From a virus, in IMG/VR virus record IMGVR_UViG_3300022745_000118, positions 1 through 31,713 of that record: 31,713 bases of DNA; one strand, written 5' to 3'. This document shows, piece after piece, positions 6,531 to 31,409 of the stretch. Position 1 is the first letter of the stretch. Each line of letters begins with the position of its first letter. A program made the translations under genes and the position numbers. A model generated the notes under the pieces. That model was not told the origin of the DNA and searched no databases. It saw only the letters and a program-made list of their open reading frames with translations.

Positions 6531-6607
6531 CGCTGGGTAGAGCAGCCAGGTAGCTCGTCAGGCTCATAACCCGAAGGTCGTGGGTTCAAATCCCACCCCA
6601 GCAACCA
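6531..6607 (+). tRNA. Initiator tRNA-fMet (anticodon CAT)
   Basis: A full 77-nt cloverleaf. The acceptor stem CGCTGGG / CCCAGCA has an unpaired C1:A72, the hallmark of bacterial initiators. The anticodon stem-loop contains GGGCTCATAACCCG-like sequence (here CAGGCTCATAACCCG) with anticodon CAT. The T arm is GTGGG-TTCAAAT-CCCAC, and discriminator A plus CCA are encoded. The D arm with GAGCAGCCAGGTAGCTCG matches the conserved tRNA-fMet form. It lies on the plus strand, opposite to every protein gene, 2 nt before the 3' end of the gene at 6610. Confidence 0.95.
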
Positions 6608-16599: not shown

Positions 16600-16673
16600 T
16601 GGAGCCAGTAGTAGGAATCGAACCCACGTCGTCGTCTTACGAAAGCGCTGCTCTGCCATTGAGCTATACCGGC
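16600..16673 (-). tRNA. tRNA-Thr (anticodon CGT)
   Basis: A 74-nt cloverleaf. Acceptor GCCGGTA / TACTGGC (one G:T), D arm TAGCTC...GAGC, anticodon loop TTCGTAA with anticodon CGT, T arm GTGGG-TTCGATT-CCTAC, discriminator T, and CCA encoded. The anticodon stem is weak (a C:A and a G:A mismatch beside three pairs including a wobble). It reads ACG codons, and lies 4 nt after tRNA-Gly. Confidence 0.88.
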
Positions 16674-16677
16674 ACGG

Positions 16678-16752
16678 TGGAGCGGCGTGCGGGAATCGAA
16701 CCCGCCTCGTTGGCTTGGAAGGCCTCGGCCCTCCCAGAGAGACCAACGCCGC
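16678..16752 (-). tRNA. tRNA-Gly (anticodon TCC)
   Basis: A 75-nt cloverleaf. Acceptor GCGGCGT / ACGCCGC fully paired, anticodon loop CTTCCAA with anticodon TCC, T arm GCGGG-TTCGATT-CCCGC, discriminator T, and CCA encoded. The anticodon stem shows only three G:C pairs next to two mismatches. It reads GGA codons, which are rare in this GC-rich sequence. Confidence 0.88.
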
Positions 16753-17790: not shown

Positions 17791-18402
17791 TCAGACGCCG
17801 GTGGTGGACCAGAGCTGCGGCAGGTTGAGGCGAACCGCCCACTTGCAGTTCGTGCCGATGGCATTGTCCGGACCCCGGATCGTGCCAAGCAGGCGCAACT
17901 GGAAGGTGGTGTTCGCGCTCGACGAGACGCCCGACGACTGCAGCTGGAAACCGGAGAACCCGGTGACCGTGCTGCCGGTGCCAGACACCAGGTTGCCGTT
18001 GGCAAAACCGCCGGTCGCCGCCGCGATGGCGCCGCTCACGCTGTCCTCCTGGATCGCGTAGACCTGGTTGGGATCATCGCAGATGATGCCGTAGTTCAGC
18101 AGCGACGCCTGCCGGTAGACCGGAAGGTCTCGGGTGATCGTCGCGGCCGTGACGCCTCCCTGCGCGGGTCCGTTGCTGATGCCGATCAGCGAGCCGAGAA
18201 CGACGTTGCCGGCGCCGGCGGTCGCAATGCCGCAGAGCGGAACGCCGAATGCATCGGTGCCGCCCAGCGCCACGATCGGGTCGCCGAGAAAGATGTTGGA
18301 ACTCTGCGAGGCGGGAAACGCGACAAGCCGGCCCTGGCCGGACCACGGCGTGCCGTTATCGTTGATCGGGCGCAGCCCGAAAGGGGTGTTTGCGTTTGCC
18401 AT
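17791..18402 (-). CDS. Capsid-associated protein, probable decoration protein
   Basis: A 203-residue protein beginning MANANTPFGLRPINDNGTPW, a start shared by many phage proteins encoded next to gpT-like capsid genes. The rest is beta-rich and Gly/Ala/Ser-rich (GDPIVALGGTDAFGVPLCGI, NTTFQLRLLGTIRGPDNAIG). It is probably a surface or trimer-axis decoration protein; this rests on gene order. An AGGA site lies about 9 nt before the ATG. The stop is followed within 30 nt by the capsid start. Confidence 0.75.
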   Translation of the reverse strand: MANANTPFGLRPINDNGTPWSGQGRLVAFPASQSSNIFLGDPIVALGGTDAFGVPLCGIATAGAGNVVLGSLIGISNGPAQGGVTAATITRDLPVYRQASLLNYGIICDDPNQVYAIQEDSVSGAIAAATGGFANGNLVSGTGSTVTGFSGFQLQSSGVSSSANTTFQLRLLGTIRGPDNAIGTNCKWAVRLNLPQLWSTTGV

Positions 18403-18493: not shown

Positions 18494-19273
18494 TCAGCCC
18501 TTGATCACCTGGAGCGGGGGCGGTGCCTGTCCGCCGTCAACCTCGGTCGGGCTGTAGAACTTGCCTTGGTCGGAACGTTGAGCCTGCCCCGGCTGCGACC
18601 GGAAGGGCGATGCCTTGAGCGCTTCAACCTTCTCCGACGCGGCTGCGTTCCTGGCGGCCATGTCCTCAAGCCAGAAAACCTCGGGGAGCTCCATCGCGTA
18701 TGCGTACATGGCCCCCTTGTCTCGGCCAGTACCAACGCAACGGCAGATGTTCTTGCCATCCTTGTCTTGGATGAAAGACCAACCGTTGGCTTCGGCTTCC
18801 TGAACACGGCCTGCCGTGTCGTTGAACCAGTGCCGATGATAACCAGAACGCTTGGGCAACGCAAGTTTCTGCGAATAGGCGCCGATCGGCTTGCGAAACT
18901 GGCGGATTCGCGCGATTTCCGCAGCGAGGTCGGTCGGGTCGGTGATCGCCTCGGACGCGAGCGATTCCGCCACGTCGCGATCGACCGTGCCGCCGTGCTC
19001 GAGCGGCATGGAGCCGTGGCGCGTCGCTTCCACGAACGACTGCTTGAAGCCCACCCTGAGCGTCTGCTGTTGCGGTCCCAGCTCGGCCTCGGTCTGTGTC
19101 ACCGGTGCGGGATCATAGAACGACGTCGACTGCAACTGGGAGGAAGCGTCCATGGGTGCGGTCGCTGCTGCGGACGCGGGCGCCGGCGCGCCAGCCGCCT
19201 TCGATTGGTTGATCGGCCCGCGCGCCTGCGGCTTGTTGCGCACCGGGGCGCGCTTGGTGGGTGCCTTTGCCAT
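18494..19273 (-). CDS. Scaffold-side structural protein
   Basis: A 259-residue protein. The N-terminal 45 residues are basic then Ala/Pro-rich (KAPTKRAPVRNKPQARGPIN). Around residues 135-200 there is a distinct block: LALPKRSGYHRHWFNDTAGRVQEAEANGW, then DKDGKNICRCVGTGRDKGAMYAYAMELPEVFWLEDMAA. The same block is seen in proteins encoded beside phage scaffold genes, with no assigned function known to me. The C-terminal part is disordered. It follows the scaffold gene by 2 nt. Confidence 0.75.
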   Translation of the reverse strand: MAKAPTKRAPVRNKPQARGPINQSKAAGAPAPASAAATAPMDASSQLQSTSFYDPAPVTQTEAELGPQQQTLRVGFKQSFVEATRHGSMPLEHGGTVDRDVAESLASEAITDPTDLAAEIARIRQFRKPIGAYSQKLALPKRSGYHRHWFNDTAGRVQEAEANGWSFIQDKDGKNICRCVGTGRDKGAMYAYAMELPEVFWLEDMAARNAAASEKVEALKASPFRSQPGQAQRSDQGKFYSPTEVDGGQAPPPLQVIKG

Positions 19274-19275
19274 GT

Positions 19276-20226
19276 TCAGCCTTTCCTGCGGTTCTGGATC
19301 ATCTCGACCACGTCGACCTGCTCGCCGAGATAGAGTGCGACGTATTCCTCGGCAGTGGTCTGGGGGTCGTATTTCGCGATGCCGCGGAACGCTGCCTCAG
19401 CCTCGGCCCTGTCCTGGGGATTGGTGATGCGCGCGAACGGCGAGGGCGAGCCTGATCGGACAGGGCCATTCTGCGGCGAAAGGGCAGGGCGCGGACGCAA
19501 ACGGCCGGCCTGCGATGGCGGAGGCGCAGCCGGGTCGCGCTGAGCCTCGAAATACTGCGGATATGCTTCCATGACCTCGGCCTTTGCTCGATCGTATTGG
19601 TCGACGAGTTCGGGACCGGACTTGCGGCCCTCCATCTCGACGATGGCCGAATGCGCCTGGATCATCGCCGTGCGAAGCAGCGGCTTGGCGGCAAACCACG
19701 GATTGGCGGCCTTGAACGCCGCGGTGACGGGATCGTCCTGCTGCGGCACAGGCTCCGGTGTCGGCTCGGCAGGCATCGGAACAACCACGTTGCCATCGCT
19801 GTTGATGCGCGCGCGCTCGGTCTCGGCCGCACGAATCTGCTCGTCGAGGTTGTCGTACGTGGCGACGTCGCCGGTCTCGACGGCCTCGCGCTGCCTGGCG
19901 CGCAGTTCAGCTAGTCCTCGCTGGTAACCGGCTTCGTCGGCGCGCCGCGCGAGGCTCATGGCCGAATTCACGCTGGCCTTGAGTTCGGCAATCTCGGTCT
20001 CATTGCGCGCCAGCTTCTCGGCCATGCGCCGGCTCTGGTCGCGCAGAATCGGAAGTTCGCTCTCGCCGCGCCGGATGAATGTCTCGGCGTCGGTCCAGCG
20101 GCTGGGGACGCCGTTGTACTCGTCACGCGGCTTCCAGCCCATCGCGCGGGCGCGGTCCTCGAGCGATACCTCGGGAAGTTCGCCCTCGATCTGCTCGATC
20201 TCGTATTCCTGGCCGTCCATGGTCAT
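19276..20226 (-). CDS. Capsid assembly scaffolding protein
   Basis: A 316-residue acidic, strongly helical protein. The N-terminal segment RARAMGWKPRDEYNGVPSRWTDAETFIRRG (26-55) is typical of phage scaffolds. It is followed by long coiled-coil stretches (residues 60-140, for example KLARNETEIAELKASVNSAM) and a Pro-rich central part. The C-terminal region ends QVDVVEMIQNRRKG, a basic coat-binding-like tail. Its place between the portal region and the capsid gene is the usual one. The start at 20226 overlaps the upstream stop (ATGA). Confidence 0.85.
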   Translation of the reverse strand: MTMDGQEYEIEQIEGELPEVSLEDRARAMGWKPRDEYNGVPSRWTDAETFIRRGESELPILRDQSRRMAEKLARNETEIAELKASVNSAMSLARRADEAGYQRGLAELRARQREAVETGDVATYDNLDEQIRAAETERARINSDGNVVVPMPAEPTPEPVPQQDDPVTAAFKAANPWFAAKPLLRTAMIQAHSAIVEMEGRKSGPELVDQYDRAKAEVMEAYPQYFEAQRDPAAPPPSQAGRLRPRPALSPQNGPVRSGSPSPFARITNPQDRAEAEAAFRGIAKYDPQTTAEEYVALYLGEQVDVVEMIQNRRKG

Positions 20227-20666
20227 TGCACTCCCTCGATCAGCGCTTTGAACTCATCGGTCACCTTGCCGGCGATCTGCTTTTCGTCGACGAGGCGATA
20301 GACTTCGCCGTCCATGCCGACGGCCTTGATGCCTGCGTACTTGTCGATATAGACGCGGTCGCCTGGTGCTGGGGCGCTCGGATCGCCATGAAACGCAAGC
20401 GTGCCGACCTCGAACACGACGCCGGTCACCGCCGCTTCGTTCATGCGGTCCTTGCGATCGTCGATCATCAGGATTCCGCCACGGGTCTGGTCGGCGACGT
20501 GGTCCATCTTGATCAGCACGTTCGGACCGAACGGGATCAGGCCGGACTCGTTGGAGCCGGGCCACTGGGCGGCAACGTATTCGGCTTCAAAGCCCTTGAG
20601 GATCCATGGCTGCAACCTGGCAGCCGCCGCCATCTGTGCGGCTTGTGCTTCGTCAATCCGTGTCAT
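20223..20666 (-). CDS. GroES-like co-chaperonin
   Basis: A 147-residue protein whose residues about 44-135 follow the Cpn10/GroES pattern: FGPNVLIKMDHV (46-57), TRGGILMIDDRKDR (61-74) at the mobile-loop place, then VTGVVFEVGT (80-89), GDRVYIDKYAGIKAVGMDGE (102-121) and VDEKQIAGKV (126-135). GroES caps the GroEL chamber; phage versions such as T4 gp31 help fold capsid proteins in host GroEL. An N-terminal helical extension of about 40 residues is not in bacterial GroES. ATG at 20666 has AGGAG about 10 nt upstream and overlaps the previous gene by 14 nt. Lying beside the scaffold gene, it probably serves capsid folding; this last point is inference. Confidence 0.82.
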   Translation of the reverse strand: MTRIDEAQAAQMAAAARLQPWILKGFEAEYVAAQWPGSNESGLIPFGPNVLIKMDHVADQTRGGILMIDDRKDRMNEAAVTGVVFEVGTLAFHGDPSAPAPGDRVYIDKYAGIKAVGMDGEVYRLVDEKQIAGKVTDEFKALIEGVQ

Positions 20667-20985
20667 TGTGGTCGTCTCCTGACTGGTCCTGCCTGTAGAA
20701 TTCCTGCATCTGCTCGAGCGTGAGGCCATGAATCTGGCGAAGCATCACGATCTGGCCGCGCAGCACGTCGGGGTTGCGGTCCTGGTGCCGGTCGCCCGGC
20801 GTCAGCAGGCCGTTCTCGAGAAGGTCCGCGGCTGCGGTGCGCATGTACTCGATCTGGTCGTCGAGAAACTGGAGGTATGCCGCGGTGATCGGGTGATGCC
20901 GCCATTGCTGGTAATCGGTATCGCCGATCGCCATGGTGTGCGCGCGCTTGGACTGCGCCATCCCGGCCGGCGTCAGGTCGATCAT
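20653..20985 (-). CDS. Small helical phage protein, unknown
   Basis: A 110-residue, helical, Gln/Arg-rich protein (DYQQWRHHPITAAYLQFLDD, then DRNPDVLRGQIVMLRQIHGL and EQMQEFY). It recurs between portal and scaffold genes in related phages; no function known. The ATG at 20985 overlaps the previous stop (ATGA), which decides the start over an in-frame upstream start at 21006. Confidence 0.7.
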   Translation of the reverse strand: MIDLTPAGMAQSKRAHTMAIGDTDYQQWRHHPITAAYLQFLDDQIEYMRTAAADLLENGLLTPGDRHQDRNPDVLRGQIVMLRQIHGLTLEQMQEFYRQDQSGDDHNDTD

Positions 20986-21212
20986 ATGGGCACACCAGCG
21001 CGCCAAAGGCGCAGTTCGAGGACGAGCTGGTAGGTTTCCATGGCGCGCGCCTGCGCGCGCAGAAGCCGTCGGTCGAGCGATTCCATGCGATCATAGATGT
21101 CGCCTTCGCCCATGAAGGCGCGCAGCTTGGCGATGCGGTCTGCGAGTTCGATATGTTCTTCGACCATCCGCTCAACATGCGGCGGCCGGGTGGTGAGGGG
21201 TACGGTGATCAT
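20982..21212 (-). CDS. crAss001_48-related small helical protein
   Basis: A 76-residue protein with the pattern HVERMVEEHIELADRIAKLRAF (12-33), then LLRAQARAMETYQLVLELRL, two amphipathic helices. It resembles the widespread small phage family named crAss001_48-related, whose members are of unknown function. ATG overlaps the portal stop (ATGA), so it is co-translated with the portal. Confidence 0.6.
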   Translation of the reverse strand: MITVPLTTRPPHVERMVEEHIELADRIAKLRAFMGEGDIYDRMESLDRRLLRAQARAMETYQLVLELRLWRAGVPI

Positions 21213-23785
21213 TGTCCTGCTCCGGGTTCAGGGTTGCCCGGTCCCGGCGGCCCCATGCCGGGAACGGCGGTTGTGCCGGTATCGAACGATCCGGGACCAA
21301 CCACGTCCGGGCCAGCTGGCGCTTCGGGGGGAACCGGAAAATCCCCGGTCGGGCCTGGTGTCGGCATGACCGGAGGCGGTGGCGGTGGCGATGGCGAGGG
21401 CGCTGACGGCGACGAGGACGCTGGCGCAGACGGCGACGAGGACGGAGATTTGAGGCGGGCAAGGTCGTGGGCGTGGGCGCGGTCCAGTGCGGACTCGCGG
21501 CGCTGGTGATCGCGGTTGCGGGCAGCCTCCTCGGCAGCGGCCTCGCGGTCGGCGGACTGACCGTGCGCCCGGGCGGACGCCTCATGCGCGCGCACGGTTG
21601 CGACAGTCGAATTGGTTTCGGCGTTGATCGACTCGATCTTGAGCCGCATAAATTCCAGTTGGCGCTCGATGAACGCCTCCTCGCTGGCGCTCGCGTTCTT
21701 GCGAGCCAGCGCCATGTTGAGGAACGCCTGGGTCTGCTCCTTGAGTTCCTTGGCGCGAAGCTCGCCGATCTGAGCCTGCGCCATGCTCATCTGCAACTGC
21801 TGGGCGGCCTGTGCACCCGCGGCGGCCTGCGGATCCAGCCCGGAGATCAGGTCATCGACACGATCGATGTTCGCCGCCTCGAGGAAGCGCCGCACGACCG
21901 CAAGCCGGTTGATCCCCGGCTCATCACGCACCGACATCAGCACTTGGCCGCGACCGAGTTTCTGCATGTCCGTGGTTTGCGTGGGATCGGTGATGGGGAC
22001 GACGCCGGCGGAGCGGCGATAGTCGTCTGGCTGCACGAACTTGACTTCGTCGCCGTAGGTATATTCCGTCTTGCTGGTGATGTAGCGCCGGTTGAGCGCA
22101 TGCAGCTTTTCGAGTTCCTGCTTTTCCGACAGGAAGATGCGCTTGACGATGCCGTTGTAGAAATTCAGCCCCTGCTCGATCAGCGCCAGCACCGTGGTCG
22201 GCGGCGCATTGGCGATCGAAGCGTCGCCGGTCAGGATACTCGCTGTGCCAGCGATCTTCTCGGCCGCGCCGATGAGGGTGCCGAGCAACTGGAACAGGAC
22301 CGGGTTCGGCCCCTTGAAGTCGATCGGGTAGACCGCGTCACGGATCGCCACGCCCTTCGCCACGACGCGATGGAACTTGCCGGTCCCGAACAGGGTCTGC
22401 CCCGACGGCAGGCTTATGCTTTCCGAAATGAAGCCGCCGCCGGTGTTTGCCAGCGTGCCGGCGTCGAACATCTGGTTGATCGATGTGTTGATCCCCACAT
22501 TCATCGCACGCAGAAGGTGGCCGAACCCCATCGGGTAACTGCCGCCGTCGATCGAGGGAACGAAGCGGTAGAGCGTGTAGAGATCGGTCGGTTCAATCCG
22601 GTGGATCGTGTTGCCGTCGTCCGATGCGACGATTCCCGCCTCGAGGTAGCGCGCGACGATGCGAACCACGCGCTGGCTGCGCAAGTGCACCGTCACGATG
22701 TACGGCTCGGGGTAGCCGTCTCCGTCGAGGTCGATCCGGCAATGCTGCTCGATGAAGATTTGCGGTGCCGAACCGTCGGTGTGGTTCTCGACCATGTCCT
22801 GGCCGTTGAACGTCTCGCCCTCGCCTCCGCCAGGACCGTAGTTCAGCGGAAGGAACATGCCGCCGCCCGCATCTTCGGTCGAATCATCGGCAGAATCCTC
22901 GCCCGTATCCTCGCCCGTATCCTCGAAGCGCTCGAGGTCAACGATCTCGCTGGGGTAGAGCAAGACCTTCTCGGTGATCCGCGGTGCCGTCTCGAAGCAG
23001 GGCGCGTTGTAGTTCCAGACCAGGTTGAACAGCGACACCGCGAGCGATGAGTTGCACCCCTCGACCGGATTGCGCATCGTCTTGCGCGCGAAACCGCCGA
23101 CCACTGGCATCTGGTGGAGCATCGCGTCGGTCTGCGGCTCCCACTCAGGCATTTCCTCGAGCAACTGGTAACTCATGTGGTCGGCAATGCGATCGGCGAT
23201 CAAGCGCTTTCCACCCGGCGGTATCAGCCACAGCGGCTCGCCATCCGGTCCTGTGCGCGGCTGCCCGTCAGGCTCGCCGTCGACCGTGACCGGGGTTCCG
23301 GTGTCGCTACCCCAGATGTTGCCCTTCACGATCGACTTGCCCGGCACGATCGCGGGATAGGTGCGTGACGCGAATTCGAGCGTGGCCTGGGTGATCAATG
23401 GCCAGATGAAGTTCGAGGCGTTGGGCCAGGGATAGTTCTTCGCTACCTCGCGCTGCATGGCCATCGCCATCGCTTCCTTTGCGTCCATCTCCCATGGACT
23501 GCGGCTGATCTCGTCGATGCGGTAACCCTCGACGACCTCGGAGCCGAGCGTGCGCAAGTCCTCGTCGGTCATGTAGCGGGCGAGGTTGATGTCATCGATC
23601 TGGGCGATGAGCATTTCCTTGCGCGTGCCGGCGCTCGGCCGCTCGACCGGGGTGCGCTCGACGACGGCCTCGTCGTGTTCGTCCGACGCGAGCACGTCGA
23701 ATGCATCCATGTCGACGGCCGGCATCTTTCCAGGCGGGGCGTCGGCGCCAAGCTGGCTCTGCGTCGTGCTCTCGATCAGCGACAT
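21209..23785 (-). CDS. Portal protein
   Basis: An 858-residue portal of the P22 gp1-like kind. The N-terminal wing/clip region contains KNYPWPNASNFIWPLITQA (about 115-133), a family hallmark, and EPYIVTVHLRSQRVVRIVARY mid-protein. A helical stem follows (LFGTGKFHRVVAKGV, FQLLGTLIGAAEKIAGTASI), then a long coiled-coil barrel-like part (about 650-760, ELKEQTQAFLNMALARKNAS). The last 100 residues are a Ser/Pro/Gly-rich tail, longer than in most portals (P22 gp1 has 725). It is the DNA entry and exit ring at one capsid vertex. A short acidic repeat (DTGEDTGED) sits near residue 289. The start overlaps the KTSC stop (TAATG). Confidence 0.88.
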   Translation of the reverse strand: MSLIESTTQSQLGADAPPGKMPAVDMDAFDVLASDEHDEAVVERTPVERPSAGTRKEMLIAQIDDINLARYMTDEDLRTLGSEVVEGYRIDEISRSPWEMDAKEAMAMAMQREVAKNYPWPNASNFIWPLITQATLEFASRTYPAIVPGKSIVKGNIWGSDTGTPVTVDGEPDGQPRTGPDGEPLWLIPPGGKRLIADRIADHMSYQLLEEMPEWEPQTDAMLHQMPVVGGFARKTMRNPVEGCNSSLAVSLFNLVWNYNAPCFETAPRITEKVLLYPSEIVDLERFEDTGEDTGEDSADDSTEDAGGGMFLPLNYGPGGGEGETFNGQDMVENHTDGSAPQIFIEQHCRIDLDGDGYPEPYIVTVHLRSQRVVRIVARYLEAGIVASDDGNTIHRIEPTDLYTLYRFVPSIDGGSYPMGFGHLLRAMNVGINTSINQMFDAGTLANTGGGFISESISLPSGQTLFGTGKFHRVVAKGVAIRDAVYPIDFKGPNPVLFQLLGTLIGAAEKIAGTASILTGDASIANAPPTTVLALIEQGLNFYNGIVKRIFLSEKQELEKLHALNRRYITSKTEYTYGDEVKFVQPDDYRRSAGVVPITDPTQTTDMQKLGRGQVLMSVRDEPGINRLAVVRRFLEAANIDRVDDLISGLDPQAAAGAQAAQQLQMSMAQAQIGELRAKELKEQTQAFLNMALARKNASASEEAFIERQLEFMRLKIESINAETNSTVATVRAHEASARAHGQSADREAAAEEAARNRDHQRRESALDRAHAHDLARLKSPSSSPSAPASSSPSAPSPSPPPPPPVMPTPGPTGDFPVPPEAPAGPDVVGPGSFDTGTTAVPGMGPPGPGNPEPGAGQ

Positions 23786-24006
23786 TACAGCTTCGTGCCC
23801 CCGCCTTTGATGTGCCGGTTGAACGCGCGCCCGAACGAGGCCGCGTTCATCACCGTGTGACCGATATTCACCGGGACGTCGTCATAGCGGAAAGTCGAGC
23901 CGTTGTGAAACCGCACCGTGAGCGCCTGCTTGCGCTCGTCGTAAGCGGCGTGGCTGGCCATCGACGACGTGATCGCCGGCAGTTCTGGCGCACCGCGCTT
24001 AGTCAC
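23785..24006 (-). CDS. KTSC-domain protein
   Basis: A 73-residue protein matching the KTSC pattern: SSMASHAAYDERKQALTVRF (14-33), NGSTFRYDDVPVNIG, then ASFGRAFNRHIKGG near the C-terminus. The domain occurs alone in phages and at the end of some lysyl-tRNA synthetases; its function is unproven and it has been suggested to bind RNA. GTG start at 24006 overlaps the upstream gene by 8 nt. Confidence 0.8.
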   Translation of the reverse strand: MTKRGAPELPAITSSMASHAAYDERKQALTVRFHNGSTFRYDDVPVNIGHTVMNAASFGRAFNRHIKGGGTKL

Positions 24007-24289: not shown

Positions 24290-25723
24290 TCAGTACCCCG
24301 TGAAGCCGGACCGTCCGGCATGCGTGCCGTAGTCGTCGTAGCCGCTGCCGATGTGCGACCAATCTTCCTCCTCCGGCATCTGCCCGACAAGGGCCGGCGC
24401 GAAATACTGCACCGTGCCGTACTCGAGCGCCTCCATGATGTGGCTCAGCATGTTCTTCTCGACCTTGTCGGAGTAGCGCTCGCCCGACACCTGGAGGCGG
24501 CGATAATGGTATCCGCCCATGAAGCCCTTGCGCAGCTGGGTGCAGCGCGGGTGCAGGATGAATTGCGGATGCCCCCCGATCATCGTGCGTAGCGGCTTGC
24601 CGATCGATTCATGCCGCATCTGCGGGTTCTGGATCGAACCCTCGACCATGATGCCCTTGCCCTGCATGATCTCGAAGCAGGTTCGCGCGTCGGTCTGCGC
24701 GCGCTGGGCGCCGGCGGGATCACCCCAGTCCTCGAACGTGGCCTGCCCGCGGAACGAGCGCGTGCAATGCTCGACGACGTCCTCGCTGAACTTGTCGATC
24801 GACATGCTCTCGCTGGTCATCTCGTCGAATGCGAGCCAGCGTCCGTCCGGCAGAAGCTGTGAGAAAGCGCACGCCGGGGTAAGGCCGAAATCCCAGGACC
24901 GTATGATAGTCACGCCGGGGACGGGGTCTATTTCCTTGCAGTGGGCGGTGTCGCTGTAGTCCGGGAACACAGGCTTGCCGTCGATGACAAAGCCGTATTC
25001 CCCCTTGATGTAGACCTTGATCCACTCCGCCGACTTGCCGACCGCGAGGTTCGAGTAGTACCGCCGGCCGCCCGGCAGGTTGGGCAGGTTCTCGGCATCC
25101 TCGGCCAGACCCGACGGCTGCTTGAAGATGCGCGCGTTGTCCGGCTTGATCTCCTCGAAGAAGCGATACCATCGGCTGTCGTTGTCGGGCGGGTTGGTAT
25201 CCATCCAGATACCGAACCAGGTCGCGCCGCCATCACGGATCGCCGGGTAGCGGCCAACGCGGCCCTGCAGCGCCTCGATGATCGACCACGGGATTTCTCG
25301 CGCCTCGTTGACCCATGCTCCGGTCAGTTCGAGGCTGAGCAGTTTCTTGATGTCGTCGGGCCGGTCAAGGGCCAGGAAGATGAGTTCGATGACGGCGCCG
25401 GGGAAGGCGGTGATCGTGTAGGTGCGCTCGTGCTTGACGTACCGGCCGAAATAGAGCTCGGGCAGCCACTGCATGATCGTCTTGATCGTCGTGTCGCGCA
25501 GTTCCGCGTAGGTGTTGCGGATGACGGCGAAGCGCGTCCGGCGCATACCGTCGGGGCCTTTCGCCTGGGCGAGTCCACGATTGACCAGCTCGACCACGCA
25601 TGCGGATGATTTGCCGGAGCCGAACGGCCCCATGAGCCCGCGGATGAACGAATTGTCCTGCGCGAATGCCTGGCAGGTCGGAACGTCGACGTAGCTATAC
25701 CGAATGTCGAGGCCGGCGCTCAT
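24290..25723 (-). CDS. terL: Terminase large subunit
   Basis: A 477-residue DNA-packaging motor. The ATPase part shows Walker A GPFGSGKSS (32-40) and the Walker B/catalytic Glu region LELTGAWVNEARE (131-143, Glu140). The nuclease part shows SWDFGLTPACAF (276-287, Asp278) and DWGDPAG (332-338). GYHYRRLQVSGERYSDKVEK near the end is typical of the P22-like group. It pumps DNA through the portal and cuts the concatemer. ATG at 25723 overlaps the previous stop (ATGA); a longer frame to 25768 is not supported. The small subunit is 4 kb away. Confidence 0.92.
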   Translation of the reverse strand: MSAGLDIRYSYVDVPTCQAFAQDNSFIRGLMGPFGSGKSSACVVELVNRGLAQAKGPDGMRRTRFAVIRNTYAELRDTTIKTIMQWLPELYFGRYVKHERTYTITAFPGAVIELIFLALDRPDDIKKLLSLELTGAWVNEAREIPWSIIEALQGRVGRYPAIRDGGATWFGIWMDTNPPDNDSRWYRFFEEIKPDNARIFKQPSGLAEDAENLPNLPGGRRYYSNLAVGKSAEWIKVYIKGEYGFVIDGKPVFPDYSDTAHCKEIDPVPGVTIIRSWDFGLTPACAFSQLLPDGRWLAFDEMTSESMSIDKFSEDVVEHCTRSFRGQATFEDWGDPAGAQRAQTDARTCFEIMQGKGIMVEGSIQNPQMRHESIGKPLRTMIGGHPQFILHPRCTQLRKGFMGGYHYRRLQVSGERYSDKVEKNMLSHIMEALEYGTVQYFAPALVGQMPEEEDWSHIGSGYDDYGTHAGRSGFTGY

Positions 25724-25902
25724 TGTACAGTGGGCTGTTCCATGTTGCGCAGGTCGAGGGCGAACCACGTATTGCCGCCGCCAGCCACCGCAGAGACAGC
25801 GTCCTCGGGGTCGCAGTAATCGCCGACGTCGTCAAACCACTCGGTGATCGGCCAGGCCCGGCCCTTGTCATCGACGAAAAAGGTGGGTGGCCGGTTGAGC
25901 AT
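25720..25902 (-). CDS. Small acidic protein, unknown
   Basis: A 60-residue protein with Trp/Asp/Tyr-rich stretches (AWPITEWFDDVGDYCDPEDA). It ends in an ATGA overlap with the large terminase, which suggests coupled translation. The ribosome site is weak. Nothing recognisable. Confidence 0.55.
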   Translation of the reverse strand: MLNRPPTFFVDDKGRAWPITEWFDDVGDYCDPEDAVSAVAGGGNTWFALDLRNMEQPTVQ

Positions 25903-30552: not shown

Positions 30553-30581
30553 ATTATGTCATCACAGCGCCGCGCGCTCAA
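30553..30581 (-). promoter_or_regulatory. Promoter for the zinc-motif/terS pair
   Basis: Minus strand: TTGAGC (4 of 6), 17 nt, CATAAT (5 of 6). The predicted start is near 30546, 24 nt before the ATG at 30522, with AGGAG between. The -35 lies inside the 3' end of the YkgJ-like gene. Confidence 0.6.
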
Positions 30582-30945
30582 GCATGCCGACCAGGTCCAT
30601 CGCCTGTTCGTGGGTCAGCAGGGTCTCGGCGCGGGCGCCATGCGGGCACGTCATCATCGGGTGGTCAACCGCGCCGAACAGCCGGCACACGAGCGGGCGG
30701 TTCTCGTAGACGCTGCACCCCGACGTCGAGGCGAACATGCAGGTTCCGCACCCGAGGCGCGTCGGCGTCAGTGTGCCAACCGGCGAAGGGTTCAGGATCG
30801 GCGCGTACTGCACGTCGTCGACCTCGACCGGCAACACCGGGACCGGCCCGCAGCAATCGCTGCAGCCCTTGCGGCAGCCGATCACCGGCGGAATCCGCGC
30901 ATAGACCGCGGCGAGGGCCTGGGCGGGCTTCGGGGCCGGATTCAT
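30562..30945 (-). CDS. YkgJ-family cysteine cluster protein
   Basis: A 127-residue protein with the YkgJ-type cluster: GCRKGCSDCCG (24-34, CxxxCxxCC), then LGCGTCMFASTSGCSVYENRP and LVCRLFG. The family is thought to chelate zinc or iron through these Cys; its biochemical role is not settled. ATG at 30945 overlaps the previous stop (ATGA), so an in-frame extension to 31008 is not needed. Confidence 0.82.
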   Translation of the reverse strand: MNPAPKPAQALAAVYARIPPVIGCRKGCSDCCGPVPVLPVEVDDVQYAPILNPSPVGTLTPTRLGCGTCMFASTSGCSVYENRPLVCRLFGAVDHPMMTCPHGARAETLLTHEQAMDLVGMLERAAL

Positions 30946-31409
30946 GGCCGCGCCTCGCTTTCGCTCGCAAACGCTGCCGCTAGTTCGGCCTTGATCTCGG
31001 CAATGCACCGTGCGGCCTCGATCGGCGGCAGCAGCGCGCGCGGTGGCTCGTACTCGCGATCGTGCAGCGCCACCAACGCGCGGGCGCGGCTGACCGCGTA
31101 GCGCCGCCGCGACGTGAACCGCAGTGCCTCGGCGCGGACCTCGGCCGGTGTCGGCATGAACGTCACCTTCCTGACCAGTTCGCGCAGCGCGCGCCGCAAG
31201 TCGGCCCCCGGAACGTCATCGAGCGCCATCCCGTAGAGCTCGAGCCGCGTCCGCGCCTCATCGACCGAAAGCGGGCGCTGCTTGGAAATCTGCGACAGCA
31301 GCGCGATGGACTGCTCGATCTCGTCGATCGTTGCCCTGGGCGGCTCGGCTGCATCGGCGACGTCGATGAACCGCGCCAGTTCGGCCCGGGTCTCAGGGCC
31401 AACCACCAC
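30942..31409 (-). CDS. Helical protein of the replication neighbourhood, unknown
   Basis: A protein of about 155 residues, strongly helical. RPLSVDEARTRLELYGMALD, DLRRALRELVRKVTFMPTPA and EVRAEALRF form a layout (helix, DVPGADLRRAL, then FxPTPAEVR) seen in short proteins next to phage replication genes; they may load or organise the helicase, but this is unproven. The start is uncertain: GTG at 31409 (or 31406) keeps the overlap with the upstream gene to about 17 nt, while ATG at 31514 would overlap it by 122 nt. The end overlaps the YkgJ-like gene (ATGA). Confidence 0.6.
   Translation of the reverse strand: MVVGPETRAELARFIDVADAAEPPRATIDEIEQSIALLSQISKQRPLSVDEARTRLELYGMALDDVPGADLRRALRELVRKVTFMPTPAEVRAEALRFTSRRRYAVSRARALVALHDREYEPPRALLPPIEAARCIAEIKAELAAAFASESEARP

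Follow-up and report, generated by a model that had tools for sequence, protein, structure and literature searches.

A GroES-like co-chaperonin gene at a fixed place in a phage capsid module and its probable role as a lid for host GroEL

Phage genes for GroES-like co-chaperonins are well known and have been widely reported; Cpn10 genes of virioplankton were reportedly described by Marine et al. in 2017 (cited in PMC8390657 and PMC7185714). Many phages use the host GroES. The 13 core genes reported for 82 HTVC023P-type pelagiphage genomes include that for GroES (PMC9599517). The best known phage precedent is T4, whose gp31 takes the place of GroES on GroEL to fold gp23 (PMC3012670); through its longer loops and missing roof, gp31 provides a somewhat larger cage (PMC3012670; PMC6318259). 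Both gp31 and CocO of RB49 are phage Cpn10 proteins that work with the host GroEL on behalf of the capsid protein (PMC6318259; PMC3012670).

We analyzed a GroES-like gene in the window, i.e., the whole 31,713-nucleotide (31.7 kb) virus record IMGVR_UViG_3300022745_000118. A first-pass annotation, made from the DNA alone, had located this gene correctly in both coordinates and strand (Table 1). It starts with an ATG at position 20666 that is preceded by AGGAG, and ends with its stop at 20223. The Cpn10 pattern recognized earlier over about 90 residues corresponds to the Pfam domain Cpn10 (PF00166), which spans residues 44-135 (E = 4.3e-10; 39.9 bits vs. a curated cut-off of 21.1). The 147-aa protein matches phrog_3188 'co-chaperonin GroES' (E = 6.5e-11), and a search of solved structures returned Cpn10, Cpn20, GroES, and Hsp10 chains, with the family profile reaching 6e-25. 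An AlphaFold monomer, computed from an input alignment of the window Cpn10 and IMG/VR rows only, has a mean pLDDT of 85.8. All 24 PDB matches of this model found by Foldseek at E <= 0.001 are GroES/Cpn10/Hsp10 chains, and in BFVD its fold best matches entries named 'Co-chaperonin GroES [uncultured virus]'. Since the Pfam, PHROG, PDB, and AlphaFold/Foldseek matches are all to Cpn10/GroES proteins, the open reading frame is real and correctly placed; a chance open reading frame was rejected, as the domain matches lie far beyond chance. The assignment of the product to the Cpn10/GroES family of co-chaperonins is well supported by its domain and its predicted monomer fold.

Table 1. Features of the window; residue numbers refer to the Cpn10 protein.
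Feature	Position	Strand	Basis or remark
Large terminase	24290..25768	-	Terminase_3 2.4e-7; phrog_2 2.4e-24
KTSC-domain small gene	23785-24006	-	between large terminase and portal
Portal protein	21209..23785	-	phrog_1216 9.4e-13; annotated portal/head-to-tail connector in relatives
crAss001_48-like gene	20982-21212	-	between portal and p93; Pfam 3.2e-17
p93, small 93-aa gene	20653..20934	-	overlaps Cpn10 start; same place in most sister contigs
Cpn10/GroES-like co-chaperonin, 147 aa	20223..20666	-	Pfam, PHROG, and PDB matches; AlphaFold and Foldseek
Conserved N-terminal motif, residues 21-42 (WILKGFEAEYVAAQWPGSNESG)	20541..20606	-	kept in sister phages; dN/dS 0.27
Mobile loop, residues 59-72 (ADQTRGGILMIDDR region)	20451..20492	-	alignment to bacterial GroES
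Shortened roof-loop segment, residues 89-101 (TLAFHGDPSAPAP)	20364..20402	-	alignment
Probable scaffold gene, 316 aa	19276..20226	-	position; charged, helix-prone composition only
g259, conserved capsid-module protein	18494..19273	-	conserved in sister contigs
g203, conserved capsid-module protein	17791..18402	-	phrog_37556 5.8e-9; conserved in sister contigs
MCP, 306 aa	16843..17763	-	Phage_capsid_4 2.8e-9; phrog_4523 4.4e-9; annotated MCPs in relatives
tRNA-Thr and tRNA-Gly	16600-16752	-	side by side
tRNA-Met	6531-6607	+	
CxxCxxCC family protein	30562-31008	-	zinc- or iron-chelating family

The genes of the head module follow each other in the order large terminase, portal, crAss001_48-like gene, p93, Cpn10, probable scaffold, g259, g203, and MCP. 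The gene had been described as lying between the portal and scaffold genes; this holds, with the qualification that two small genes intervene on the portal side. On the scaffold side, the Cpn10 stop and the start of the next gene overlap in an ATGA. Judged from its position and composition, the gene downstream of Cpn10 is probably the scaffold gene, and it is conserved directly after Cpn10 in sister contigs. The crAss001_48-like gene was found at the place between portal and p93 in no sister contig. Elsewhere in the record, two tRNA genes directly follow the MCP gene within the structural module, a third lies on the opposite strand, and a CxxCxxCC protein is encoded close to the small terminase gene.

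Relatives of the window were collected from IMG/VR with the MCP as bait; a single-protein scan of IMG/VR with the window Cpn10 returned no relatives, and a nucleotide search of phage records gave no match. The nearest annotated phages by MCP are uncultivated spring phages, an Alcaligenes phage, DSL-LC04, and Planktothrix phages, as well as Roseobacter CRP-901/902, Pelagibacter HTVC023P/027P, and Caulobacter phage RW. In 12 of 12 annotated relatives, the Cpn10 gene immediately precedes the scaffold-position gene and lies upstream of the MCP gene. Among 51 MCP loci from IMG/VR, it occupies this place in all those that extend far enough upstream of the MCP gene, the others ending before it. One record (L015) begins too near the MCP gene, and a Cpn10 gene is present at its other end. 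Four Cpn10 members fall below Pfam detection, and the family profile finds all four. The only cellular match is a 62.8 kb contig (L065) from a Sphingomonas palustris MAG; it belongs to the same phage group, and its MCP is 84% identical. It is probably a binned phage; since the contig is of phage-genome size, it provides no proven link to a Sphingomonas host.

A search of 27 related phage records, 12 of them deposited as complete genomes, detected no Cpn60/GroEL; the one cellular assembly included in this search scored positive. The window represents perhaps half of a genome (related records measure 40-69 kb), which would leave room for a phage-encoded GroEL beyond the 31.7 kb fragment as the partner of this Cpn10, but the result for the related records renders such a partner extremely unlikely.

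The divergence of the Cpn10 proteins parallels that of the MCPs. Pairwise distances of the two proteins are correlated across 37 phages (r = 0.82; permutation p = 0.0005), and the correlation amounts to 0.81 (permutation p <= 0.0005) over 13 distant phages and to 0.72 in the close family. In a tree of the Cpn10 domain, 36 phage sequences are separated from 55 Pseudomonadota sequences by one clean split (UFBoot 100); since the bacterial side was drawn from Pseudomonadota only, the tree does not prove a single origin of all such phage genes. Because of this split, we rejected a recent capture of a host GroES gene. The distance correlation and the clean split together indicate long vertical inheritance within the capsid module, and these sequence comparisons argue for Cpn10 as an old capsid-module gene that was inherited together with the MCP gene.

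In three places the phage protein departs from bacterial GroES. An N-terminal extension of about 40 residues, already noted in the first-pass annotation as absent from bacterial GroES, was confirmed: 49 aa precede V50 of the window protein vs. 9 aa in 29 of 29 aligned Sphingomonadales GroES proteins. The conserved motif of this extension follows a variable tip and precedes the Cpn10 barrel, and its residues 31-40 are confidently modeled by AlphaFold where the motif meets the barrel (mean pLDDT of 94). The TRGGILM segment does stand where the mobile loop had been proposed, as it aligns with KTAGGIII of bacterial GroES; its hydrophobic tripeptide, ILM, is the predicted GroEL-binding element. Between fixed anchors, the mobile-loop span comprises 27 residues in 54 of 55 bacterial GroES proteins (26 in the remaining one), 31 in the window protein and most other phage members, and 30-32 in nearly all of them (it is longer in L004 and L044); the approximately four extra residues come after GGI. 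The roof segment measures 13 aa in the window protein and in L046, 17 in all aligned bacteria, and 20 in most sister phages. A published account of these three departures, in loop, roof, and N terminus, was not found in our literature coverage, which is incomplete.

Simple pairwise dN/dS estimates, which were derived from fairly diverged pairs and are usable as comparisons only, are highest for the mobile loop (0.69), compared with 0.36 for the Cpn10 domain, 0.33 for the later core, and 0.27 for the N-terminal motif. The domain is thus under purifying selection by this estimate, and the mobile loop is its fastest-changing part, whereas in Sphingomonadales GroES the loop is as conserved as the rest of the protein (82% vs. 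76-90% identity). Such a fast-changing loop is expected for host tracking or conflict, and the main job of the protein might accordingly be to take the host GroEL away from the host GroES, as a takeover factor or decoy with no capsid-specific client. We consider this improbable: the fixed site beside the scaffold and MCP genes and the co-divergence with the MCP speak for a capsid role, and a takeover gene would more often be expected among the early genes.

The mobile loop is rebuilt, enlarged, or degenerate in several relatives (L004:3531-3872, L044:7061-7549, L052:2315-2695, and L053:2007-2450; also L011). Judged from their loops, the Cpn10 proteins of L004, L044, L052, and L053 may have lost the usual mode of GroEL binding. 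The altered loops of these four, together with the four relatives missed by Pfam, would fit a protein that has lost its co-chaperonin role and now serves in the structure or the assembly of the prohead. This is highly unlikely, since the GG-hydrophobic loop is kept in the window protein and in most relatives and the barrel is under purifying selection.

The earlier suggestion of an association with capsid assembly is borne out by the fixed synteny, the co-divergence with the MCP, the Cpn10 fold, and the lack of a GroEL in the related phage records searched. Our best explanation, to which we assign as a whole a probability of about 0.75, is that the protein serves as a lid that works with the host GroEL to fold a capsid-module protein, most likely the MCP. 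Cpn10 would be made late in infection together with the capsid-module proteins and would assemble into a heptameric lid. Its TRGGILM loops would then bind the host GroEL in place of the host GroES, and the cage capped in this way would allow a capsid-module protein, most likely the MCP with its 306 aa, to fold before assembly. The four additional mobile-loop residues and the shorter roof may alter the height and the lining of the dome, the N-terminal motif may pack onto the barrel, and variation in the mobile loop could tune the affinity to different host GroELs. Three observations count against this explanation. Since the mobile loop is degenerate or rebuilt in L004, L011, L044, L052, and L053, a uniform GroEL-binding role is weakened; Cpn10 is less conserved than the MCP (mean identity of 55% vs. 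83% in the close family); and the MCP (about 33 kDa, as estimated from its length) is small enough for the normal GroEL-GroES cage, which leaves the need for a lid beyond host GroES unexplained.

The scaffold or the small module proteins are alternative clients after the MCP. A reading in which the lid chiefly serves a head-module protein other than the MCP (scaffold, g203, g259, or a tail/adaptor protein) is a variant of our best explanation and overlaps with it; it draws on the ATGA overlap, which joins Cpn10 to the scaffold gene and not to the MCP gene, and on an MCP that is not oversized for the normal cage. We nevertheless regard it as rather unlikely, since the gp31-gp23 precedent favors the MCP, as does the co-divergence, in a comparison of Cpn10 with the MCP.

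Our analysis extends the fixed Cpn10 position to a wider set of phages that includes metagenomic relatives of the window, and it adds the co-divergence of Cpn10 and MCP as well as the ways in which loop, roof, and N terminus differ from those of bacterial GroES. We tentatively propose, with less than even confidence, that these Cpn10 proteins form a distinct and old phage lineage that has evolved together with a single MCP lineage. Despite the small capsid protein, this lineage would have acquired gp31-like features that change the cage (a longer mobile loop and, in places, a reduced roof) independently of gp31, and its mobile loop would be tuned to different hosts. If this is true, phage lids would be specialized for capsid folding chemistry and the host GroEL, and not for cage size. 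In the phages sampled, this capsid lineage is never without a lid of its own, and its many natural pairs of Cpn10 and MCP can be used to ask what makes a dedicated lid necessary for capsid proteins. With so small an MCP, the usual answer of cage size becomes testable, and the variable mobile loop may reveal how phages fit different host GroELs.

Compared with gp31 and CocO, in which the mobile loop is longer and the roof reduced relative to GroES, the window Cpn10 is alike in its loop span (31 vs. 27 residues in bacterial GroES) and its roof (13 vs. 17 residues), the latter likeness holding for the window and L046 but not for most sister phages. The T4 gp31-like role put forward earlier stands only as an analogy and not as a relationship: hhalign detected no sequence homology between the window family and gp31 (probability 0.3%), and in a PHROG search gp31 matched phrog_931 only, whereas the window family matched phrog_3188, so that homology at the sequence level was rejected. 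The fold search lists gp31 (1g31) weakly (E = 0.043). Moreover, the gp31 gene lies outside the T4 head cluster whereas the window gene lies inside the head module, and inspection of the sequence by eye apparently places the extra loop residues of gp31 on the other arm. The T4 client gp23 is a 56 kDa protein; since the window MCP, with its 306 aa, has only about 33 kDa by length and is not too large for a normal cage, the enlarged-cage explanation of gp31 is not directly transferable. With bacterial GroES, the window protein has the Cpn10 barrel and a KT.GGI mobile loop in common (28% domain identity to Sphingomonadales GroES); it differs by its 40-residue N-terminal extension, four additional loop residues, a shortened roof, and a gene without a linked groEL. 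The HTVC023P-type pelagiphages, CRP-901/902, and Caulobacter phage RW have an MCP, portal, and Cpn10 homologous to those of the window. As in the HTVC023P-type head module, the window Cpn10 gene lies between those for the homologous portal and MCP, and in all these phages and their relatives the Cpn10 gene takes the same relative place before the scaffold-position gene and the MCP gene. The window Cpn10 is only about 17-35% identical to its counterparts there, and is set apart from them by a shorter roof loop, another N-terminal sequence, and the extra crAss001_48-like gene upstream.
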